Shown one piece after another: positions 12,562 through 31,556 of a DNA stretch of 32,679 bases (position 1 is its first letter; every line of letters begins with the position of its first letter). The notes below the pieces were generated by a model, which ran no database searches, had not been told where the DNA came from, and saw nothing but the letters and a program-made list of their open reading frames with translations. This DNA is from Chitinophagaceae bacterium (GTDB taxonomy: Bacteria; Bacteroidota; Bacteroidia; Chitinophagales; Chitinophagaceae). The position numbers were made by a program, and so were the translations under genes. Location: contig CANCPA010000034.1 of assembly GCA_947379895.1 (NCBI GenBank), positions 1-32,679 of the forward strand, given 5' to 3'.

Positions 12562-14289
12562 ATGAATGCTGCTGTTTTGGAAAAAGTGAATGTATGGCTT
12601 AGTGGTAATTACGATGCCGTGACGAAAGATGGGATCCGCAAAATGCAAGTGGAAAATCCTTCAGAGTTAGAAGAAAGTTTTTATACCAATCTAGAGTTTG
12701 GGACAGGAGGACTCAGAGGAATTATGGGTATTGGTACCAATCGAATGAATAAATATACGGTTGGTATGGCTACTCAAGGTTTTTCAAATTACTTAAAAAA
12801 GGAATTTGGAAATAAGGAAATATCTGTAGCTGTGGCTCATGATAGCCGGAACAATAGTCGTTTTTTTGCAGAGACTACTGCTGCAATCTTTGCTGCAAAC
12901 GGTATAAAAGTATTTTTATTCGAAGCATTACGTCCTACTCCTGAGTTGAGTTTTACAATTAGACATCTAGGTTGTAAAGCAGGTGTTGTATGTACTGCAA
13001 GTCATAATCCCAAAGAATATAATGGCTATAAAGCCTATTGGGACGATGGAGGGCAATTAGTGCCACCTCATGATAAAAATGTTATCACAGAAGTTGAGGC
13101 AATAAAGAGTGTAGATGATATTAAATTTACCGGAGGTGAGAGTAATATCACAATTATAGGTAAGGAATTGGATGATGCCTACATTAAAATGGTGAAGTCA
13201 TTAAGTGTTTATCCTGATATTATTGAAAAAGTACATGATTTGAAAATAGTGTACACGCCAATTCACGGTACGGGAATTATGCTTGTGCCAAAGGCTTTAG
13301 CAGCATTTGGATTTACGAATGTTACAATTGTTGAAGAACAAGCAACTCCTGATGGGAATTTCCCAACTGTAGCATATCCAAATCCTGAGGAAAAAGCAAC
13401 AATGAGTATTGGTTTGGCAAAGGCAAAAGCGATTGATGCAGATATTCTTTGTGGTACAGATCCTGATGCAGATAGGGTGGGTGTGGGTATAAAAAATCAT
13501 AAGGGCGAGTGGGTGCTTATGAATGGTAATCAAACTGCTGTTCTTGCATTTGCATATATGATTGAAGCTAGAAAAAAGAAAGGAATTGCTCAAGCAAATG
13601 ACATGGTAATCTCTACGATTGTTACCACAGACATGATAAATGAAGTGGCAAGACAAAATGATGTGGCATGTTACAATGTTTTGACTGGATTTAAGTGGAT
13701 TGCTGAAAAAATAAAGGAAGTTGAAAGTGAAAAAAATTATGTAATCGGCGGAGAAGAAAGTTTTGGTTTGATGATTGGAAATCAAATTAGAGATAAGGAT
13801 GCAGTGAGTGCTGTTGCATTAATGTGTGAAATGGCGGCTTATGAAAAGGCTAATGGAAGAACATTGTTTGATAAATTAATTGATTTATATATACAATATG
13901 GATTCTATTATGAGAACCTAATTAGTATTACTAAGAAAGGAATGAATGGGCAAAAGGAAATTGCTGATATGATGACAGGATATCGTAATAATCCCCCTTC
14001 AACAATTAATGGTGCTAAAGTTGTTACCTTATTAGACTATCAATTGCAGGTTGGCACTAACCTTTTGACTGGAGATACATTCCCAATCACACTTCCTAAG
14101 AGTAATGTTTTGCAATTTTTAACGCAGGATGGTACAAAAATTTCTGCTCGCCCTAGTGGTACAGAACCTAAAATTAAATTTTATTTTAGTGTCAACACAA
14201 AGTTGAATAACAGAGATGAATTTGATGAAAAATATGCAGAATTGCAGAAGAAGATTACTGATATAATTGAGGAATTGCAATTAAAGTAA
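12562..14289 (+). CDS. Phospho-sugar mutase (phosphoglucomutase/phosphomannomutase)
   Basis: A cytosolic enzyme of 575 residues of the alpha-D-phosphohexomutase superfamily, which moves phosphate between C1 and C6 of glucose or mannose phosphate. All four domains are marked: GTGGLRG near the start; the phosphoserine loop TASHNP with S147; the Mg-binding GTDPDADRVG; the sugar-specificity loop GGEESFG; and the C-terminal phosphate-binding ARPSGTEPKIKFY. Length and GGEESFG match the PgcA-like phosphoglucomutase branch, but glucose versus mannose preference is not certain from sequence. It has its own strong terminator and no obvious operon partner. Confidence 0.93.
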   Translation: MNAAVLEKVNVWLSGNYDAVTKDGIRKMQVENPSELEESFYTNLEFGTGGLRGIMGIGTNRMNKYTVGMATQGFSNYLKKEFGNKEISVAVAHDSRNNSRFFAETTAAIFAANGIKVFLFEALRPTPELSFTIRHLGCKAGVVCTASHNPKEYNGYKAYWDDGGQLVPPHDKNVITEVEAIKSVDDIKFTGGESNITIIGKELDDAYIKMVKSLSVYPDIIEKVHDLKIVYTPIHGTGIMLVPKALAAFGFTNVTIVEEQATPDGNFPTVAYPNPEEKATMSIGLAKAKAIDADILCGTDPDADRVGVGIKNHKGEWVLMNGNQTAVLAFAYMIEARKKKGIAQANDMVISTIVTTDMINEVARQNDVACYNVLTGFKWIAEKIKEVESEKNYVIGGEESFGLMIGNQIRDKDAVSAVALMCEMAAYEKANGRTLFDKLIDLYIQYGFYYENLISITKKGMNGQKEIADMMTGYRNNPPSTINGAKVVTLLDYQLQVGTNLLTGDTFPITLPKSNVLQFLTQDGTKISARPSGTEPKIKFYFSVNTKLNNRDEFDEKYAELQKKITDIIEELQLK

Positions 14290-14317: not shown

Positions 14318-14348
14318 GAAGGCTTCGCTATTTGCGAGGCCTTCTTTG
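14318..14348 (+). terminator. Terminator of the phospho-sugar mutase gene
   Basis: GAAGGCTTCGC (14318-14328) pairs with GCGAGGCCTTC (14334-14344) around TATTT, with one mismatch, followed by TTTG. Its stem is close to that of the terminator at 6572-6600. Confidence 0.8.
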
Positions 14349-14441: not shown

Positions 14442-14735
14442 TTAAAAGATGTGTATCATCTGGTAAAATTTTTATAACGCTATTCAAATGTTGATTGACG
14501 AATGGTAAAAGTTGTGTTACGCATAGTAAAAGATTGGTGATGTATAGTAAAAGTTACTTTATGAATGATGAAATATTCGTACCGTTTTGCAATGGAAGGT
14601 ATCCGCCTGGCAAAAGATAAGAGTCGAAATACAAAATATCCGAGACGATTGGTAAAAGATGCTTTGCGATAGTTGCAAAATGCTTGATGCTTAAAAAACT
14701 ATCAATTATGATCTAAAAAATTTGTGTGAAGAGTT
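14442..14735 (+). repeat. Array of about fourteen 21-bp imperfect direct repeats
   Basis: This fills the middle of the 618-nt gap between the mutase and oxidoreductase genes. Cutting from 14442 in steps of exactly 21 gives units that begin TTAAAAG, GTAAAAT, TCAAATG, GTAAAAG (14505, 14526, 14547), ATGAAAT, GCAATGG, GCAAAAG (14610), ACAAAAT (14631), GTAAAAG (14652), and so on. Within the first thirteen units position 9 is T in twelve, and positions 16-17 are C/T followed by G in twelve. The fourteenth unit keeps AAAA, T9 and G17. The approximate consensus is GTAAAAGATG..T.ACGATG. There are no indels across 294 bp. Stops interrupt the frames I followed, so it is not coding. The rest of the gap (14349-14441 and 14736-14860) shows nothing clear. 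Confidence 0.8.
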
Positions 14736-14907: not shown

Positions 14908-15897
14908 ATGAATAACGAAAAAATCAGATGGGGAATTTTAGGTGCCGGCAGAATTGCAAATAAGTTTTGTACTGCTTTAGTTTCTACACCGGGTGCGGTA
15001 CTTTATGCAGTAGCTTCTAGAAATGTTACTTCTGGAAAACCGTTTTCTATAAAGTATAGTGCTGTTAAATATTATGATAATTATCTTGAACTTGTTTCAG
15101 ACCCAAATGTCGACATAATATACATTGCTACACCTCACATCTTTCATTATGAACAAGTAAGACTTTGTTTGGAAAATAATAAGTCTGTGTTGTGCGAGAA
15201 GCCAATTGGAGTAAGTTATCTTCAAACACAACAAATGATTGAACTTGCTACCCAAAAGAAGCTATTTCTTATGGAAGGGATGTGGACTGCCTGTATGCCA
15301 TTCATCAAAAAAATTAAAGAGATAATTCAAGATGGAATAATTGGTACAATTGCTAATGTGCAGGCCGATTTAGGGTTTACTGCCCAAAATAATCCTGAAG
15401 ATCGACTATTAAATAAGGCTTTAGCGGGTGGTTCCATTCTTGATGTTGGAGTATACCCTATCTCATTGGCAACGCTTTTATTGGGGCGGCCATCTGCCAT
15501 TAAATCTGTTTCTGCACTCACTGAAACAGGAGTTGATGCCTACTCAAATATTATTTTACAATATCCAAATGGGGCGACTGCACAATTACTCTCCTCTTTA
15601 ATTTTTGAAACGCCAAAAGAGGTGGTAATAATGGGTACAAAGGGATTAATCAGAGTGGATTCGCCTTGGTATATGGCAACTGACTTTTCTGTACAACTTG
15701 AAGATGGTACAGAGAAAACATATCATTTGCCTCATCCAAATAATGGGTTTGAATTCGAAATCAGTGAGGTAATGAATTGCCTGAAAGACAAGTTATTAGA
15801 AAGTGTCTTAGTTCCACATAGTCAGACTTTGATTGTAAGTGAAATTATGGATGAATTACTGTTTCAAGCAAGTGTTAATTATGATGAACCGCTTTGA
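14908..15897 (+). CDS. Gfo/Idh/MocA family NAD(P)-dependent oxidoreductase
   Basis: A 329-residue protein with an N-terminal Rossmann domain (GILGAGRIANKF), the family signature CEKPIG that contains the catalytic-region lysine, and a C-terminal alpha/beta substrate domain from about residue 130, with GGSILDVGVYP where the family has its conserved Asp/His region. Members oxidise or reduce sugars, inositols, biliverdin or dihydrodiols; the MEGMWT segment and the overall pattern look most like the trans-1,2-dihydrobenzene-diol/xylose dehydrogenase branch. The substrate cannot be fixed. The gene stands alone between the 21-bp repeat array and the signalling genes. Confidence 0.88.
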   Translation: MNNEKIRWGILGAGRIANKFCTALVSTPGAVLYAVASRNVTSGKPFSIKYSAVKYYDNYLELVSDPNVDIIYIATPHIFHYEQVRLCLENNKSVLCEKPIGVSYLQTQQMIELATQKKLFLMEGMWTACMPFIKKIKEIIQDGIIGTIANVQADLGFTAQNNPEDRLLNKALAGGSILDVGVYPISLATLLLGRPSAIKSVSALTETGVDAYSNIILQYPNGATAQLLSSLIFETPKEVVIMGTKGLIRVDSPWYMATDFSVQLEDGTEKTYHLPHPNNGFEFEISEVMNCLKDKLLESVLVPHSQTLIVSEIMDELLFQASVNYDEPL

Positions 15898-16067
15898 TTT
15901 AGGCAATTGTAGTGGATGGAATTGGAAGTGGGACATAATTTATCACTTTTTTTACTAATTATTTGAAGAAATAAAACAAATTGATTATGTGATAAATCGT
16001 CAATTATTTGTAATATTATTTCATAACGTTAATCACTTTAACAAAGAAAGTAAATTCGCAATAACGA

Positions 16068-16436
16068 ATGAAAAAAGCTATTATTCTTTTTATAGATGAT
16101 GAAATTGTGCTTGCATCGAAGATCAAGCAAATTCTCGAATTAGAGGATTATTTTGTGCAATACGAATCATCAGCAATAATTGCTTTGGACTATTTGAAAG
16201 AAAATATACCTGACTTAATTATATGTGATATAATGATGCCTGAAATGGATGGTTTCGAGTTTTATGAAGAATTTCAGAAACTAGGCCTCACAAACATTCC
16301 TTTTGTCTTTCTGACTGCAAATAATAAAGTTGCAGATATGGAGAAAAGAACAAACTTGGGAATCGAAGACTATTTAACAAAGCCCATAAGTAGAATAGAC
16401 CTTTTAAAAGCAATAGAAATTAGGTTGAATAAATAA
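16068..16436 (+). CDS. Single-domain response regulator
   Basis: 122 residues that make up one receiver domain and no output domain. The acidic pocket is D10/D11, the phospho-acceptor is D54 in ICDIMMPEMDGFEF, the switch Thr is in FLTAN and the conserved Lys in TKPI. It has the same motif spacing as the receiver of the REC-CRP protein at 2859. It must act by protein contact, for example as a phosphate shuttle. It is the first of four two-component genes on this strand and is followed by a 307-nt AT-rich gap without a clear terminator. Confidence 0.9.
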   Translation: MKKAIILFIDDEIVLASKIKQILELEDYFVQYESSAIIALDYLKENIPDLIICDIMMPEMDGFEFYEEFQKLGLTNIPFVFLTANNKVADMEKRTNLGIEDYLTKPISRIDLLKAIEIRLNK

Positions 16437-22378: not shown

Positions 22379-25300
22379 ATGGTTAAGTTTTTTTTTATAA
22401 TCATGATTATCAGTTTTACACAAACGATGGCACAATTGCCAAATTCGTTTGCAATAACTCGTTATCAGGATATTGAAGGAGTTAATAGTAAATGTATTAC
22501 TGATATTTATCAAGCAAATAATGGTTTTCTATGGTTTACAACTGCACAAGGATTAGTTAGATTTGATGCCACAAATTTTAGGTTATATAATCAAAAATCC
22601 AGCTATTCAAACAATATGACTACTGTCAAAGAAGATTCTAGTGGCAATTTGTGGATTTCTTTGGCAGATGGAACTTTAGCTTGTTTTAATCCAAATAATG
22701 GAATATTTAAGAATATCTCAATTAAAATAACAGGTAACAACAAACCTGTTAACATAGGAACTATATTAAAGATTCATTTTGATAAGCAAAATCGGTTGTG
22801 GGCTGCCACATCTAGGGGATTGATTCAAGTAAATAAATTTTCAGGCGAAGCAAAAAGCTTTAGAATAAAGGATGATAATGATACAATATCATTTGTTCAA
22901 CAGAAAAATACGAAAGTTAGCGATATTTACGAAGATGAAAATAGGCAACTTTGGCTAGCCACTGATGATGGATTGTATTGTTTTGATCCTAATCTGAATA
23001 AAATGAATCGGATAGGACCTAAAAAGGTGCAAGTAGGGGCTTGGTCTGATTATGCTTATCAGAGAATCTGTCGCATGGGTAACTATCTTTATCTTGCTTC
23101 ATGGGGAGGCGGATTATCTGTATATAGTTTCACCTCTCATAAAATTGAAATTTATAAATTCAATTTAAAATCACCTAAGTCGGGTACTAATAATATCATT
23201 CGCGACTTAATTAAAAGTGATACTAATAGTTTATTAATAGCATCCCCTGATAATGGTTTAGCTTCATTTAATTGTATCTCACATGAATTTAATTTCTTTC
23301 GAAAAGAGAAGGATAATACCAATATTCAACAGTTTTTGTGGAATAGATTAGTTAAAGACAAAGATGGTAATATTTGGGCATTAAATGCTGATGGATTAGC
23401 AAAAATAGTAACAACAGATTATCCTTTCCAGTATCAAACCTTCCCTGTAACACACTCCGATAATCATATTTTTTACGAACTCAATGATATGTGGGAAAAT
23501 AATGAATATCGGTTTGTGTCCTTAAGTTTTGCCGACGGGGTTCATCTATTTAACAAAAAGACTGGTCATCGTAAGATTTTATCTGTAGATTTTTTTAAAT
23601 CTGAGGAAAACGTTCAATATGCTGAGCAAATATTTAACGACAGTAAAAATAACATTTGGGTTATTACAAGTGATTTCATTTATCAATTTGATTTTGCAAC
23701 TTTGAAACTAAAAAAAATCACTCAGCCTCCTACCTTTTCTACACAACATTTAAGTAATTTCTTTGTAGGAATAGCCGAAGATAAAAGTGGTAATATTTGG
23801 TTAAGTACCATTCGAAATGGCGTTTTTATATATAATCCAAAAACAGCTCAGTATCATCATAATATTCCATTTACTACCCATATAAATGGTGTAAATGAAA
23901 TTGCTCCAATTGTAAGTATATGTTCAGATAAAAACGGAAGAATTTGGCTTGGCTCAAAACGTGGATTTTTAGGTTATAGTGACGGCATGAACGAGAATAT
24001 TACAGAAATTAAGAATACTGAATCCTCAAGTAAAATATCAGATTTGTTTTCTGATTCAAAGGGAAATGTTTGGGTAAGTACTGATAGAGGATTGTTGAAA
24101 TTTAATGCAAAAGAAAACGTTCCTGTTATTATAAGGAAGTTTACAACTGCAGATGGATTTTCCTCAGATCTATTGACGGGGTTGTGCGAGGATGGTCAAG
24201 GCTCAATATGGTGTATATCTGATGCGACAATGAAGGTTTTCAAAATAGTAGAACAGAATAGACAGGTTGTTGCATTTGATGCAAGAGACGGCATTAGCGA
24301 GCCCGGTGCACTTATAAAAATGGTACATTTAAAAAATGACAGTGTTTACTTACTTTGTCAGGGAGGTATTTATACCTATTGTCCTTCAATGATTGCTAAC
24401 CGCAAACCTTCTCCTAATCTTGTAGTGAGCACAATGACTATAAATGGAAATGAAAAAAGCTTTGAGGAGGAATTGAAAAAACAAAGTGAATTAATACTTA
24501 ATCCAAATGAAAATTCTTTCTATTTCGAGTTTGCAGCAATCGACTTTAAACATCCTGAAGATTACGTTTATGCATACAAACTTGAAGGATATGATGATAA
24601 ATGGGTAGATATCGGTAATAGAACTACTACTAGTTTTACCAATTTAAAAGGAGGGCATTATAAATTATTCATAAAAGCAAGTTCGAAAAAGGGAGTATGG
24701 AATGTAAACGAAATCACTATTCCTTTTTATATTCTTACTCCTTTTTATTTTCAAAGGTGGTTCGTTTTCCTTTGTGTAGTTTCGATTGCAGTACTTATTT
24801 ATTTTTATATCCGTATCCGATTTTTTCGTCAACGTAAAATATTTGAATTAGAAAACAAAACACACAATTTAGAAAAGGAAAAAGCAAAAATGCAATACGA
24901 AAGCTTGAAGCAACATCTTAATCCACATTTTCTATTTAATTCTTTAACATCTTTAGGAAGTTTAATTCGTTTTGATCCAAAAGCTGCGATTACTTTCCTT
25001 GATGGGATGAGCAAAATTTATAGATATATCCTTCAGAGTAAAGATGAGGAAACGGTCATGCTTAAAGATGAGATTATTTTTGTTCAAAATTTTGTTGCAT
25101 TACAAACAACTAGGTTTGGCAATGGATTGCAAGTTCACTTTCAAATTGATGATGAGCTATTAAATTGTAAAATTGTTCCTGTTACACTCCAAAATATGAT
25201 TGAAAATGCCATAAAGCATAATATGATCGAAGAAGAAAGCCCCCTTGTCATTAATATAAAGTCTGAAAATAAATATTTAGTTATTTCAAATAACCTTCAA

Positions 25301-25435
25301 AAGAAGTTTTTCGTAGAAACAAGTAATCGGCATGGACTCAATAATCTGATTGCATTGTATGGATATTTGTCCGATAAACCTTTATTAATTGAAGAAACGG
25401 TAAATCATTTTATAGTAAAAATTCCCTTGTTATGA
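22379..25435 (+). CDS. Beta-propeller sensor histidine kinase (Reg_prop, Y_Y_Y, LytS-type kinase)
   Basis: 1018 residues. A signal peptide ends near TMAQ. From about 30 to 690 there is a two-component-regulator propeller with repeats such as GNLWISL, NRLWAAT, RQLWLATDDG, GNIWALN, GNIWLST, GRIWLGS and GNVWVST. A Y_Y_Y domain follows at about 725-790 (LEGYDDKWVDIG), then one membrane helix at about 800-820, a coiled linker and a His_kinase domain with H850 in LNPHFLFNSL. The HATPase segment is short (MIENAIKHN, then RHGLNNL). The propeller senses a periplasmic ligand. Unlike hybrid HTCS proteins it has no fused receiver or AraC domain; the regulator is the separate LytTR gene, overlapping by four bases. 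No polysaccharide-use genes adjoin, so the ligand is unknown. Confidence 0.92.
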   Translation: MVKFFFIIMIISFTQTMAQLPNSFAITRYQDIEGVNSKCITDIYQANNGFLWFTTAQGLVRFDATNFRLYNQKSSYSNNMTTVKEDSSGNLWISLADGTLACFNPNNGIFKNISIKITGNNKPVNIGTILKIHFDKQNRLWAATSRGLIQVNKFSGEAKSFRIKDDNDTISFVQQKNTKVSDIYEDENRQLWLATDDGLYCFDPNLNKMNRIGPKKVQVGAWSDYAYQRICRMGNYLYLASWGGGLSVYSFTSHKIEIYKFNLKSPKSGTNNIIRDLIKSDTNSLLIASPDNGLASFNCISHEFNFFRKEKDNTNIQQFLWNRLVKDKDGNIWALNADGLAKIVTTDYPFQYQTFPVTHSDNHIFYELNDMWENNEYRFVSLSFADGVHLFNKKTGHRKILSVDFFKSEENVQYAEQIFNDSKNNIWVITSDFIYQFDFATLKLKKITQPPTFSTQHLSNFFVGIAEDKSGNIWLSTIRNGVFIYNPKTAQYHHNIPFTTHINGVNEIAPIVSICSDKNGRIWLGSKRGFLGYSDGMNENITEIKNTESSSKISDLFSDSKGNVWVSTDRGLLKFNAKENVPVIIRKFTTADGFSSDLLTGLCEDGQGSIWCISDATMKVFKIVEQNRQVVAFDARDGISEPGALIKMVHLKNDSVYLLCQGGIYTYCPSMIANRKPSPNLVVSTMTINGNEKSFEEELKKQSELILNPNENSFYFEFAAIDFKHPEDYVYAYKLEGYDDKWVDIGNRTTTSFTNLKGGHYKLFIKASSKKGVWNVNEITIPFYILTPFYFQRWFVFLCVVSIAVLIYFYIRIRFFRQRKIFELENKTHNLEKEKAKMQYESLKQHLNPHFLFNSLTSLGSLIRFDPKAAITFLDGMSKIYRYILQSKDEETVMLKDEIIFVQNFVALQTTRFGNGLQVHFQIDDELLNCKIVPVTLQNMIENAIKHNMIEEESPLVINIKSENKYLVISNNLQKKFFVETSNRHGLNNLIALYGYLSDKPLLIEETVNHFIVKIPLL

Positions 25436-26190
25436 AAGCAGTAATATTAGAAGATGAACATTTAATTGCAAAAGAGTTACAAGCAAAAATTAAAACAGTA
25501 GCACCATTTGTACAGGTAATAGAAGTATTAACGAGTTTGAAGGCAGCTAAAAAATGGTTACTTCACAATCAGGAACCTACTGTTTGGATTATGGATATTC
25601 AGTTGAGTGATGGCATTAGCTTCGAGCTTTTTGAAATTTATCAACTTAGGGCCCCTGTAATTTTTACAACTGCGTATGATGAATTTGCTTTAAAGGCTTT
25701 TAAATCAAATGGGATTGATTATTTGTTAAAACCAATCGATGAAGTTGAACTCTTAAGAGCCTTAGAAAAAATAAAAAAAGCCACATTGCCATTAAGCAAC
25801 GACATTGATTGGGCAAATATCTTTGCTAATTATTCAGCACCAAAAACCTCGTTTAAAGAAAGGATTATCGTGCAAGTTCGTAATAATTGGATGCCAATTA
25901 ATACCAAGGATATAGCATGTATTTACAAGGAAGCCTTGATTTATTTGTATTTATTTAATGGTGAAAAGTTTCCTTATGAAGCTCATTCATTAGATGAAAT
26001 AGAAGAATTGCTTGATTCACGTTACTTTTATAGGGCAAATAGACAAACTATTGTTAATTTATCGGCTATTAAAATGGTTCAACAACTCGATAGCCAAAAA
26101 TTATTACTAATGCTAAATATTTCAATGAAGCAAAATATTGAAATTAGTAGAGAAAAAATGCCACTATTTAAAAAATGGTTTAATCAATAG
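25432..26190 (+). CDS. LytTR-family response regulator
   Basis: 252 residues. Receiver domain at 1-120 has E7/D8, phospho-acceptor D55 (VWIMDIQLSDG), TTAYD and the Lys in LLKPID. A LytTR DNA-binding domain fills about 140-252 (RIIVQVRNNWMPI, FYRANRQTIVNLSAI). The start codon overlaps the kinase stop (ATGA at 25432-25435), so the two are translated together and form a cognate pair. Such regulators bind paired 9-10-bp direct repeats; no target was located. The next gene, pdhA, has its own promoter and is not an obvious target. Confidence 0.93.
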   Translation: MKAVILEDEHLIAKELQAKIKTVAPFVQVIEVLTSLKAAKKWLLHNQEPTVWIMDIQLSDGISFELFEIYQLRAPVIFTTAYDEFALKAFKSNGIDYLLKPIDEVELLRALEKIKKATLPLSNDIDWANIFANYSAPKTSFKERIIVQVRNNWMPINTKDIACIYKEALIYLYLFNGEKFPYEAHSLDEIEELLDSRYFYRANRQTIVNLSAIKMVQQLDSQKLLLMLNISMKQNIEISREKMPLFKKWFNQ

Positions 26191-31382: not shown

Positions 31383-31493
31383 TAGTTATGAATTATAAAC
31401 TATGATTGAAGAGATTCGAAAAAATAAGGATTTGCCTGTAGTTTGTATTAAATTCAGCTATTAAATCATAAGAATTAAACGGTTTAAACCTTC

Positions 31494-31556
31494 AACTTAA
31501 AACTTACAACGTAAAACGTACAACTTATAACGTAAAACTTATAACGTAAAACTTAC
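31494..31556 (+). repeat. Heptamer array, nine units
   Basis: Nine head-to-tail units without gaps: AACTTAA, AACTTAC, AACGTAA, AACGTAC, AACTTAT, AACGTAA, AACTTAT, AACGTAA, AACTTAC. It is the longest and cleanest array of the ACTYAYA family in the window and lies 14 nt beyond the metF stop, between metF and lutB. Confidence 0.85.

Follow-up and report, generated by a model that had tools for sequence, protein, structure and literature searches.

A 21-bp repeat array between two Chitinophagaceae genes belongs to a genus-wide class of intergenic arrays that keep their helical register and not their sequence

Within a 32,679-nt stretch of a Chitinophagaceae genome (contig CANCPA010000034.1, hereafter the window, which is contig C34 of a 5.3-Mb draft of 401 contigs), an array of 21-bp direct repeats at positions 14442 to 14735 belongs to a genus-wide class of non-coding arrays between genes. 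In the case of the window array, a diverged and non-palindromic example, the evidence is that of membership and not direct. What is conserved in this class is the register, 21 or about 41-42 bp and hence two or four turns of the helix, and not the sequence. As the preferred explanation we propose a helically phased protein scaffold with exchangeable sequence, held by a putative DNA-binding protein, to which we assign a probability of roughly 0.45, class membership included.

The window array consists of 14 steps of exactly 21 bp without any indel. Identity within the array amounts to 0.516, 0.520 and 0.511 at lags of 21, 42 and 63 bp, with all other lags from 5 to 69 bp lying between 0.16 and 0.37 (0.287 at lag 21 in shuffled sequence; z of the array 8.5). 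A 7-bp unit does not underlie the array, as identity reaches only 0.324 at lag 7 and 0.368 at lag 14. None of 1000 dinucleotide shuffles matched the observed sum over the three lags, none of 500 did so at any period from 10 to 59 bp, and among periods of 8 to 79 bp the array is the top periodic signal of the whole window. These peaks, beyond all shuffles, bear out the exact stepping from 14442 that a sequence-only reading of the window had reported. GTAAAAG or a one-base variant was likewise found at all seven positions named there (14442, 14463, 14505, 14526, 14547, 14610 and 14652), and the conserved columns are present as described: T at position 9, C or T at position 16 and G at position 17, each in 13 of 14 units. 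The count of about fourteen repeats stands as far as the register is concerned, as all 14 steps keep it, and needs to be qualified for the sequence, since ten units are clear (leave-one-out profile scores of 7.2 to 18.5 bits) and four are weak (14589, -0.1; 14673, 3.3; 14694, -3.5; 14715, 4.8). By itself, Tandem Repeats Finder detects just 14496-14555. On the level of observation the earlier reading was therefore confirmed, and the array can be divided as follows:

14442 to 14672, no strand: array core, an indel-free run of 11 direct 21-bp units that are all clear but for the weak one at 14589, column consensus about GTAAAAGATGCGTTACGATTG
14673 to 14735, no strand: three weak units in the same register as the core (leave-one-out 3.3, -3.5 and 4.8)

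For the class as a whole, we used a sample taken blind to repeats and comprising 1.05 Mb from seven genomes of the genus, in chosen and not random contigs: 400 kb of the source genome (20 kb from the start of each of contigs C1-C20), 200 kb from G006 and as much from G004, and between 42 and 100 kb from each of G007, G011, G012 and G002 (G and L numbers denote genomes and loci). Another 600 kb came from eight genomes outside the genus; the sample of one of these, G019, was all N, and N runs were dropped before counting. The periodicity scan was cut at z = 8, the largest z in ten shuffled 20-kb sequences being 5.4, and an array was taken to lie in a gene only if it covered less than 42% of an open reading frame (ORF) of at least 150 aa. 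Under these settings, 49 of the 73 intergenic arrays in the genus have periods of two or four helix turns (36 of 21 bp, one of 22, five of 41 and seven of 42), and the others include 17 of 7 bp, two of 8, two of 9 and one each of 37, 47 and 61. Inside genes, we found ten arrays with periods of 6, 7, 9, 12 and 15 bp, and by the ORF criterion no 21-bp array in a true gene of the sample; of the arrays with a 21- or 42-bp period, 13 were first flagged as coding and make up 44-92% of their own ORFs of 95-173 aa. The outgroups contributed six intergenic arrays with periods of 7, 8 and 44 bp and no 21-bp array in 0.60 Mb.

A second scan, extended to a period of 140 bp, gave 38 arrays of 21 bp, one of 22, five of 41, three of 42 and five of 14 in the genus, together with single arrays of 37, 47, 61, 81 and 83 bp. 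Most of the long periods lie near multiples of two helix turns, those above 42 bp being single cases. Three period-21 matches in large ORFs were set aside as protein repeats or low complexity, and the outgroups showed single intergenic matches of 12, 44 and 84 bp. The 11 arrays in 400 kb of the source genome extrapolate to about 146 per genome, and 15 and 13 arrays were counted in the 200 kb each of G006 and G004. Units are 63-93% identical to their consensus (29 arrays). To some degree the class extends beyond the genus: G034, from another family of the order, carries three different 21-bp arrays side by side (L189:1927-2800; CACGTGCCG..., CAAGATATTTATCTTTCAG... and GCAAGCATTTTTCTGCCCGAT...), with no 21-bp array in the 67 kb of it that were sampled blind, and 27 single non-coding 21-bp arrays occur elsewhere among the listed loci of a scan of genome contigs for three successive GTAAAAG-N14 units.

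A common sequence does not accompany this common register. Pairwise comparison of 51 arrays gave a median profile score of 8.4 vs 8.2 for shuffled units, and no universal motif emerged among 49 consensus units, the best 6-mer, GACGTC, being present in five of them with 0.1 expected, partly in related arrays. The largest shuffled score of 15.6 is exceeded by two pairs from the same genome (L170/L171 and L172/L173), by one array seen twice, and by L216/L227, L211/L268, L172/window and L216/L184. By unit sequence, the window array is closest to two arrays of G004, L172 (18.9) and L173 (14.9), which are not an independent sample because they were found with a model built from the window array. For each of five arrays that were searched genome-wide (L170, L190, L203, L213 and L226), the same genome contains relatives or additional copies at other loci; the likeness is limited to the array itself for all of them except L170, and the L213 family, whose unit contains TTCTTGGTAAGAA, is also found in G004, G002, G007 and G001. 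The class is thus made up of many sequence families, each at few loci.

The turnover of sequence can be followed at sites with the same flanking genes. The interval between proC and dut contains array L203 in the source genome; both of its flanks lie on a single contig in seven relatives, and six more loci have one flank only. Four of the seven (G004, G006, G001 and G007) carry a 21-bp array, one of them common to G004 and G006; the arrays of G001 and G007 show no detectable relation to it or to each other (p 0.05-0.53), and the array of the source genome is weakly related to it (p 0.002 and 0.02). The intervals measure 293, 293, 291 and 315 bp in G004, G006, G001 and G007, respectively. Between G004 and G006 the array differs at 11 of 189 sites (5.8%) with 0 indels, and the fourfold sites of the adjacent genes differ at 34 of 107 and 32 of 48, with 17-59% in three other ORFs there. 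In the L213 interval, the arrays of G006 and G004 have nine units each and are related (p 0.002). The array of G007, also of 21 bp, is unrelated and its interval matches that of G006 in length (246 and 246 bp), and G010 has another array (312 bp vs 291 in G006) plus a further one at a paralogous place (p 0.06-0.78 between these arrays). The search for L226 returned no locus with both flanks. Two orthologous sites are thus occupied in different species by 21-bp arrays whose sequences are unrelated and whose lengths are often similar.

The units themselves also bear a helical imprint. Measured against copies with columns permuted alike in all units, they are palindromic in 22 of 52 arrays at p<0.05 and in 10 at p<=0.005 (Stouffer 10.7), as in AATAAG-N6-CTTATT (L214), ATCGGTATACCGAT (L320) and TTTTAATCATGATTAAAA (L323); if consensus units alone are used, 12 of 39 show dyads at p<0.05 (p 0.84 for the window array). 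The conserved columns form clusters (50 arrays, Stouffer 6.9, with 12 individually at p<0.05), and the Fourier power of column conservation is raised at 10.5 bp both in 17 palindromic arrays (p 0.002) and in 20 others (p 0.006), the subsets having been picked by hand from the palindrome results. In the 20 others it is raised at 21 bp too (p 0.001), and the same 17 and 20 arrays show no 3-bp harmonic. Clustering alone could reflect patchy exchange between units; the 10.5-bp pattern is the trace expected of a protein reading one helix face. The earlier proposal that conserved elements share one face of the helix is supported class-wide, in that column conservation recurs at 10.5 bp within the unit. 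On each strand, folding energy lies below that of column-permuted copies, and to the same degree (Stouffer -15.6 for both). RNA structure was rejected as the cause, since an equal signal on both strands favours neither of them and agrees with DNA palindromes; no folding signal is seen in the window array (z 0.69 and 0.37). Several 41/42-bp units resemble inverted dimers of 21-bp half-units, e.g. TTGACAATA/TATTGTCAA:

L212:13351-13602 (G006): inverted-dimer-like 41/42-bp array
L216:6481-6648 (G006): inverted-dimer-like 41/42-bp array
L227:19057-19343 (G004): inverted-dimer-like 41/42-bp array

Gain or loss occurs by whole units, as three cases show. A dispersed element of about 400 bp is present in four copies in G006 (L170, L171, L295 and L297), and parts of its flanks recur in G000 and G004. 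Two of its loci hold ten-unit arrays that are 82% identical with no indel between them, and the two further copies hold one unit and are exactly 9 x 21 bp shorter. Similarly, the proC-dut interval of G003 has one unit vs nine in G004 and G006 (122 vs 293 bp, a difference of 8 x 21 bp and, apart from that, a 3-bp gap).

Taking these results together, we prefer a protein lattice because, at fixed sites, the register persists longer than the sequence, because the arrays avoid genes though 21 bp keeps the frame, because conserved columns lie 10.5 bp apart, and because sequence families are shared in trans. Each array would serve as a DNA scaffold for a dimeric or polymerising DNA-binding protein that sits on one helix face every two turns, probably with several paralogous proteins of different specificities, and its local role may be that of an architectural or insulating element. 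Arrays might be born by tandem amplification from one 21-bp segment, after which the bound protein would uphold the register; at a given site they would be exchangeable, since the lattice alone matters. The idea that spacing is kept while sequence drifts, put forward from the window alone, holds for the whole class in the period spectrum, at orthologous sites and in the 10.5-bp columns, and to this extent the interpretation of the sequence-only reading is partly supported.

Several observations weigh against such a scaffold. Its binding protein is putative. The window array is not palindromic (z -1.87, p 0.97), nor are 30 of 52 arrays at p<0.05, and within-unit covariation across the dyad is weak (z 5.9 in total; Stouffer 2.6 in the 33 of 54 arrays with high palindromy) and is not relied on because the axis was chosen on the same data. 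Many orthologous sites lack an array: three of seven at proC-dut (G003, G010 and G011), all five relatives with both flanks at L190 (where seven more loci have one flank only), and six of six at the window locus. The proC-dut interval of the source genome is longer (443 bp) than those of its relatives, and the non-array intergenic DNA of this interval shows as much conservation between G004 and G006 as the array does, with differences at 6 of 105 sites, so that either the whole interval is constrained or the tract was recently exchanged. At L213, the arrays of the same two genomes differ at 93 of 188 sites (49%) and the next 100 bp at 38 of 97 (39%), compared with 29 of 87 fourfold sites (33%), 20 of 190 in the left flank and 82 of 686 in the right gene; array divergence above that of fourfold sites means that constraint is not uniform across sites.

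The main rival, and nearly as likely, is a neutral bacterial satellite that needs no function. It would arise by lineage-specific amplification in two-turn steps, through slippage, hairpin fold-back or unequal exchange, and its copies would persist in intergenic DNA only, be reduced to a single unit by recombination and expand again with changed sequence. Such a process accounts well for the differences by whole units (9 x 21 bp in the G006 element, 8 x 21 in proC-dut of G003), for the frequent lack of arrays at orthologous sites and for a turnover at the L213 site that is faster than at fourfold sites, and hairpin-templated synthesis could supply the palindromes. It does not lead one to expect that frame-keeping 21-bp arrays are missing from true genes, where arrays of 6, 9, 12 and 15 bp do occur, nor that two ten-unit arrays of G006 are free of indels at 82% identity. 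Moreover, families that share the array only, across loci and species, are unexpected from local re-seeding, and the 10.5-bp column pattern needs an extra cause.

That each family represents the sites of one transcription factor, with array swaps rewiring regulation, is a distinctly unlikely alternative, even though families of 2 to about 5 loci per genome and palindromic units in many arrays would suit operators. Named by eye with no family search, the neighbours resemble housekeeping genes that have no relation to one another (asnS, alaS, proC, dut, a KDO transferase, an isocitrate-dehydrogenase-type gene and others). The genes flanking the 40 arrays with both neighbours are co-directional in 19 cases, divergent in 13 and convergent in 8, as compared with 233, 80 and 71 of all 384 gaps in G000, G006 and G004; array position is thus weakly tilted to divergent gene pairs, 13/40 vs 80/384 being a small excess for operators. 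In addition, the window array stands behind a terminator, and its promoter signal is not above chance. Very improbable is a decayed coding sequence for heptad (7-residue) repeats: the unit equals 7 codons, one forward frame has a loose heptad pattern and a minus frame is open for about 70 codons, but stops occur in all frames and at a recurring unit position, the 3-bp harmonic is lacking, periods of 41, 22 and 61 bp are not multiples of 3, and the 13 ORF-overlapping arrays of 21/42 bp alone account for 44-92% of the ORFs concerned (95-173 aa). Assemblers are commonly run with k-mer sizes such as 21, 41 and 61, and an assembly artefact, to which this coincidence with the periods 21, 41 and 61 and the 130 to 710 contigs of the genus drafts might point, is still less probable in view of units that are diverged (63-93% to consensus in 29 arrays) unlike graph loops, a proC-dut array shared at 94% without indel by the separate genomes G004 and G006, and outgroup drafts without such arrays.

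No description of an array class of this kind was found in the literature searched, and the earlier statement that no named element matches agrees with this, absence from print not being proven. Iterons and parC/parS-type centromere arrays are direct repeats about one or two turns apart that are cooperatively bound; they number one or few per replicon and come with a dedicated initiator or partition gene. In contrast, an estimated 146 arrays per genome, with different sequences, lie here beside ordinary-looking housekeeping genes, which argues against the iteron or partition site suggested earlier, and by eye no initiator or partition gene was seen beside the window array (pgm, Gfo/Idh-type) or 11 other arrays of the source genome. 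CRISPR arrays have regular spacing, a constant repeat and unique spacers of similar length; they were rejected as a match, as the 21-bp units run head to tail with no spacers and no constant repeat. A cas-like ORF was not noticed in the window's ORF list, for which no family search was made. Eukaryotic centromeric satellites (units of about 170 bp, megabase arrays, histone-based) resemble the present arrays in that sites and unit length are kept and the sequence turns over between species.

Among published repeats, arrays of the TAACTGA heptamer, which are intergenic direct repeats in Beggiatoaceae, some Cyanobacteria and Bacteroidetes, are similar in being non-coding tandem arrays that a genome can carry in large number (169 sets in one case), in having neighbour genes without a common function and in being missing in some close relatives with equal gene neighbours (PMC4679880). 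They differ from the class described here, whose units have 21/42 bp, many unrelated sequences and, in part, palindromes; plain 7-bp arrays are also present in this genus beside it. Repetitive extragenic palindromic (REP) elements and bacterial interspersed mosaic elements (BIMEs) are described as small (20-40 bp) extragenic palindromes in many copies, with REP-associated tyrosine transposases (RAYTs) and super-families tagged GTAG or CGTC (PMC3733652). The likeness lies in small extragenic palindromes in many copies (PMC3733652); REP/BIME was rejected, since no common tag and no single family sequence were found in our arrays (51 arrays pairwise; 49 consensus units). Y1 transposases (PF01797) are present in most genomes, with 0-7 matches per genome of the genus and 0-9 outside, which is no excess in the genus. 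Intergenic tandem repeats are also mentioned for lake Planctomycetota (PMC9426551).

Bacterial tandem repeats are usually characterised by sequence. In the present arrays it is the unit length, two helix turns or twice that, which persists in unrelated sequences, at different loci and in different species, and two orthologous sites show one array taking the place of another. The class therefore exposes either an undescribed chromosome-organising protein lattice or a process of DNA amplification with a built-in helical ruler. A bolder extension of the scaffold, which we regard as doubtful, is a chromosome studded with an estimated 100-350 short lattices that are read by register, on which paralogous, fast-diverging proteins, each with its own palindrome family, would polymerise, with cassette-like exchange between fixed sites. 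If true, register-read lattices would be a bacterial parallel to the rapidly evolving centromeric satellites.

The locus of the window array is framed by the following features:

12562 to 14289, + strand: pgm, phosphoglucomutase/phosphomannomutase-type gene, left neighbour and synteny anchor (named by sequence reading, no family search)
14318 to 14344, + strand: intrinsic-terminator-like hairpin of 11 pairs behind pgm and upstream of the array
14908 to 15897, + strand: Gfo/Idh/MocA-type oxidoreductase gene, right neighbour, adjoining pgm in six relatives (named by sequence reading; tblastn)

The terminator-like hairpin is predicted to close the pgm transcript upstream of the array. Of the two boundaries proposed earlier, the terminator is thus present, and the next promoter finds no backing (4 promoter-like matches vs 3.8 in shuffles). 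As had been stated, the array is non-coding, with stops inside it in all six frames; the longest open run across it is about 70 codons in one minus-strand frame, and the ORF list of the window has no ORF of at least 60 aa within it. Across the window, no Rfam family reaches its gathering score, the best match below threshold (E 1.3) lying close to the array, and there are no tRNA genes. Eight relatives carry a pgm that is 81-86% identical over its full length, and in six of the genus (G006, G010, G001, G007, G002 and G004) it is followed by the same Gfo/Idh-type gene. The interval between both genes measures 126-282 bp in these six vs 612 bp in the window's genome, and all six are without a periodic array, contrary to the expectation that homologous intergenic regions keep the 21-bp spacing. 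The window array may hence be a recent gain here or may have been lost in all six relatives. A DNA search of 39 genomes besides the source genome yielded short matches only (about 23-50 bp, E 4e-4 to 0.01), and no second copy was found in the source genome, where the next matches of the array model stand at E 0.004 or worse. This profile model was built from a 63-bp register alignment that MAFFT had slid by whole units; it served only as a search aid whose matches are leads and were not counted.

Concerning the GTAAAAG motif itself, the contig scan returned at least 116 stretches from many phyla, which carry little weight because the scan pattern fixes the motif by construction. The exact pattern occurs in 2 of 395 genomes of the phylum and its reversed control in 4, and GTAAAAG was therefore rejected as an enriched motif. 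One of the two is the source genome with five places, namely the window array and otherwise 7-bp repeats, and the match in the second genome is a 7-bp repeat. Among 30 further non-coding arrays in these at least 116 loci, one has a period of 21 bp, being the same array as one in G006, and one a period of 41 bp; with 1 of 30, 21-bp arrays are no general companion of repeats.

A few side observations may be added. Among the matches listed, 21-bp arrays composed of GTAAAAG, a variable stretch and then AATTCACGA or AACTCACGA recur in several Bacillus/Peribacillus genomes (L022, L025, L027, L061, L080, L097, L108 and L118). Beside the L213 array lies a dispersed repeat (L213, about 15972-16182; G006:C4) with matches at many loci of the genus (G004, G003, G002, G000 and G009). 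The window also holds two diverged 7/14-bp heptamer arrays, at 31493-31555 and 580-625 (AACTTAA / CAACTTAAAACGTA; GAAATATGAGTGAT); heptamer arrays are the other non-coding repeat kind common in the genus. Finally, positions 22379-26190 of the window appear, by sequence reading, to encode a large sensor of propeller type (1018 aa) whose end resembles a histidine kinase and, behind it, a response regulator of the LytTR type.
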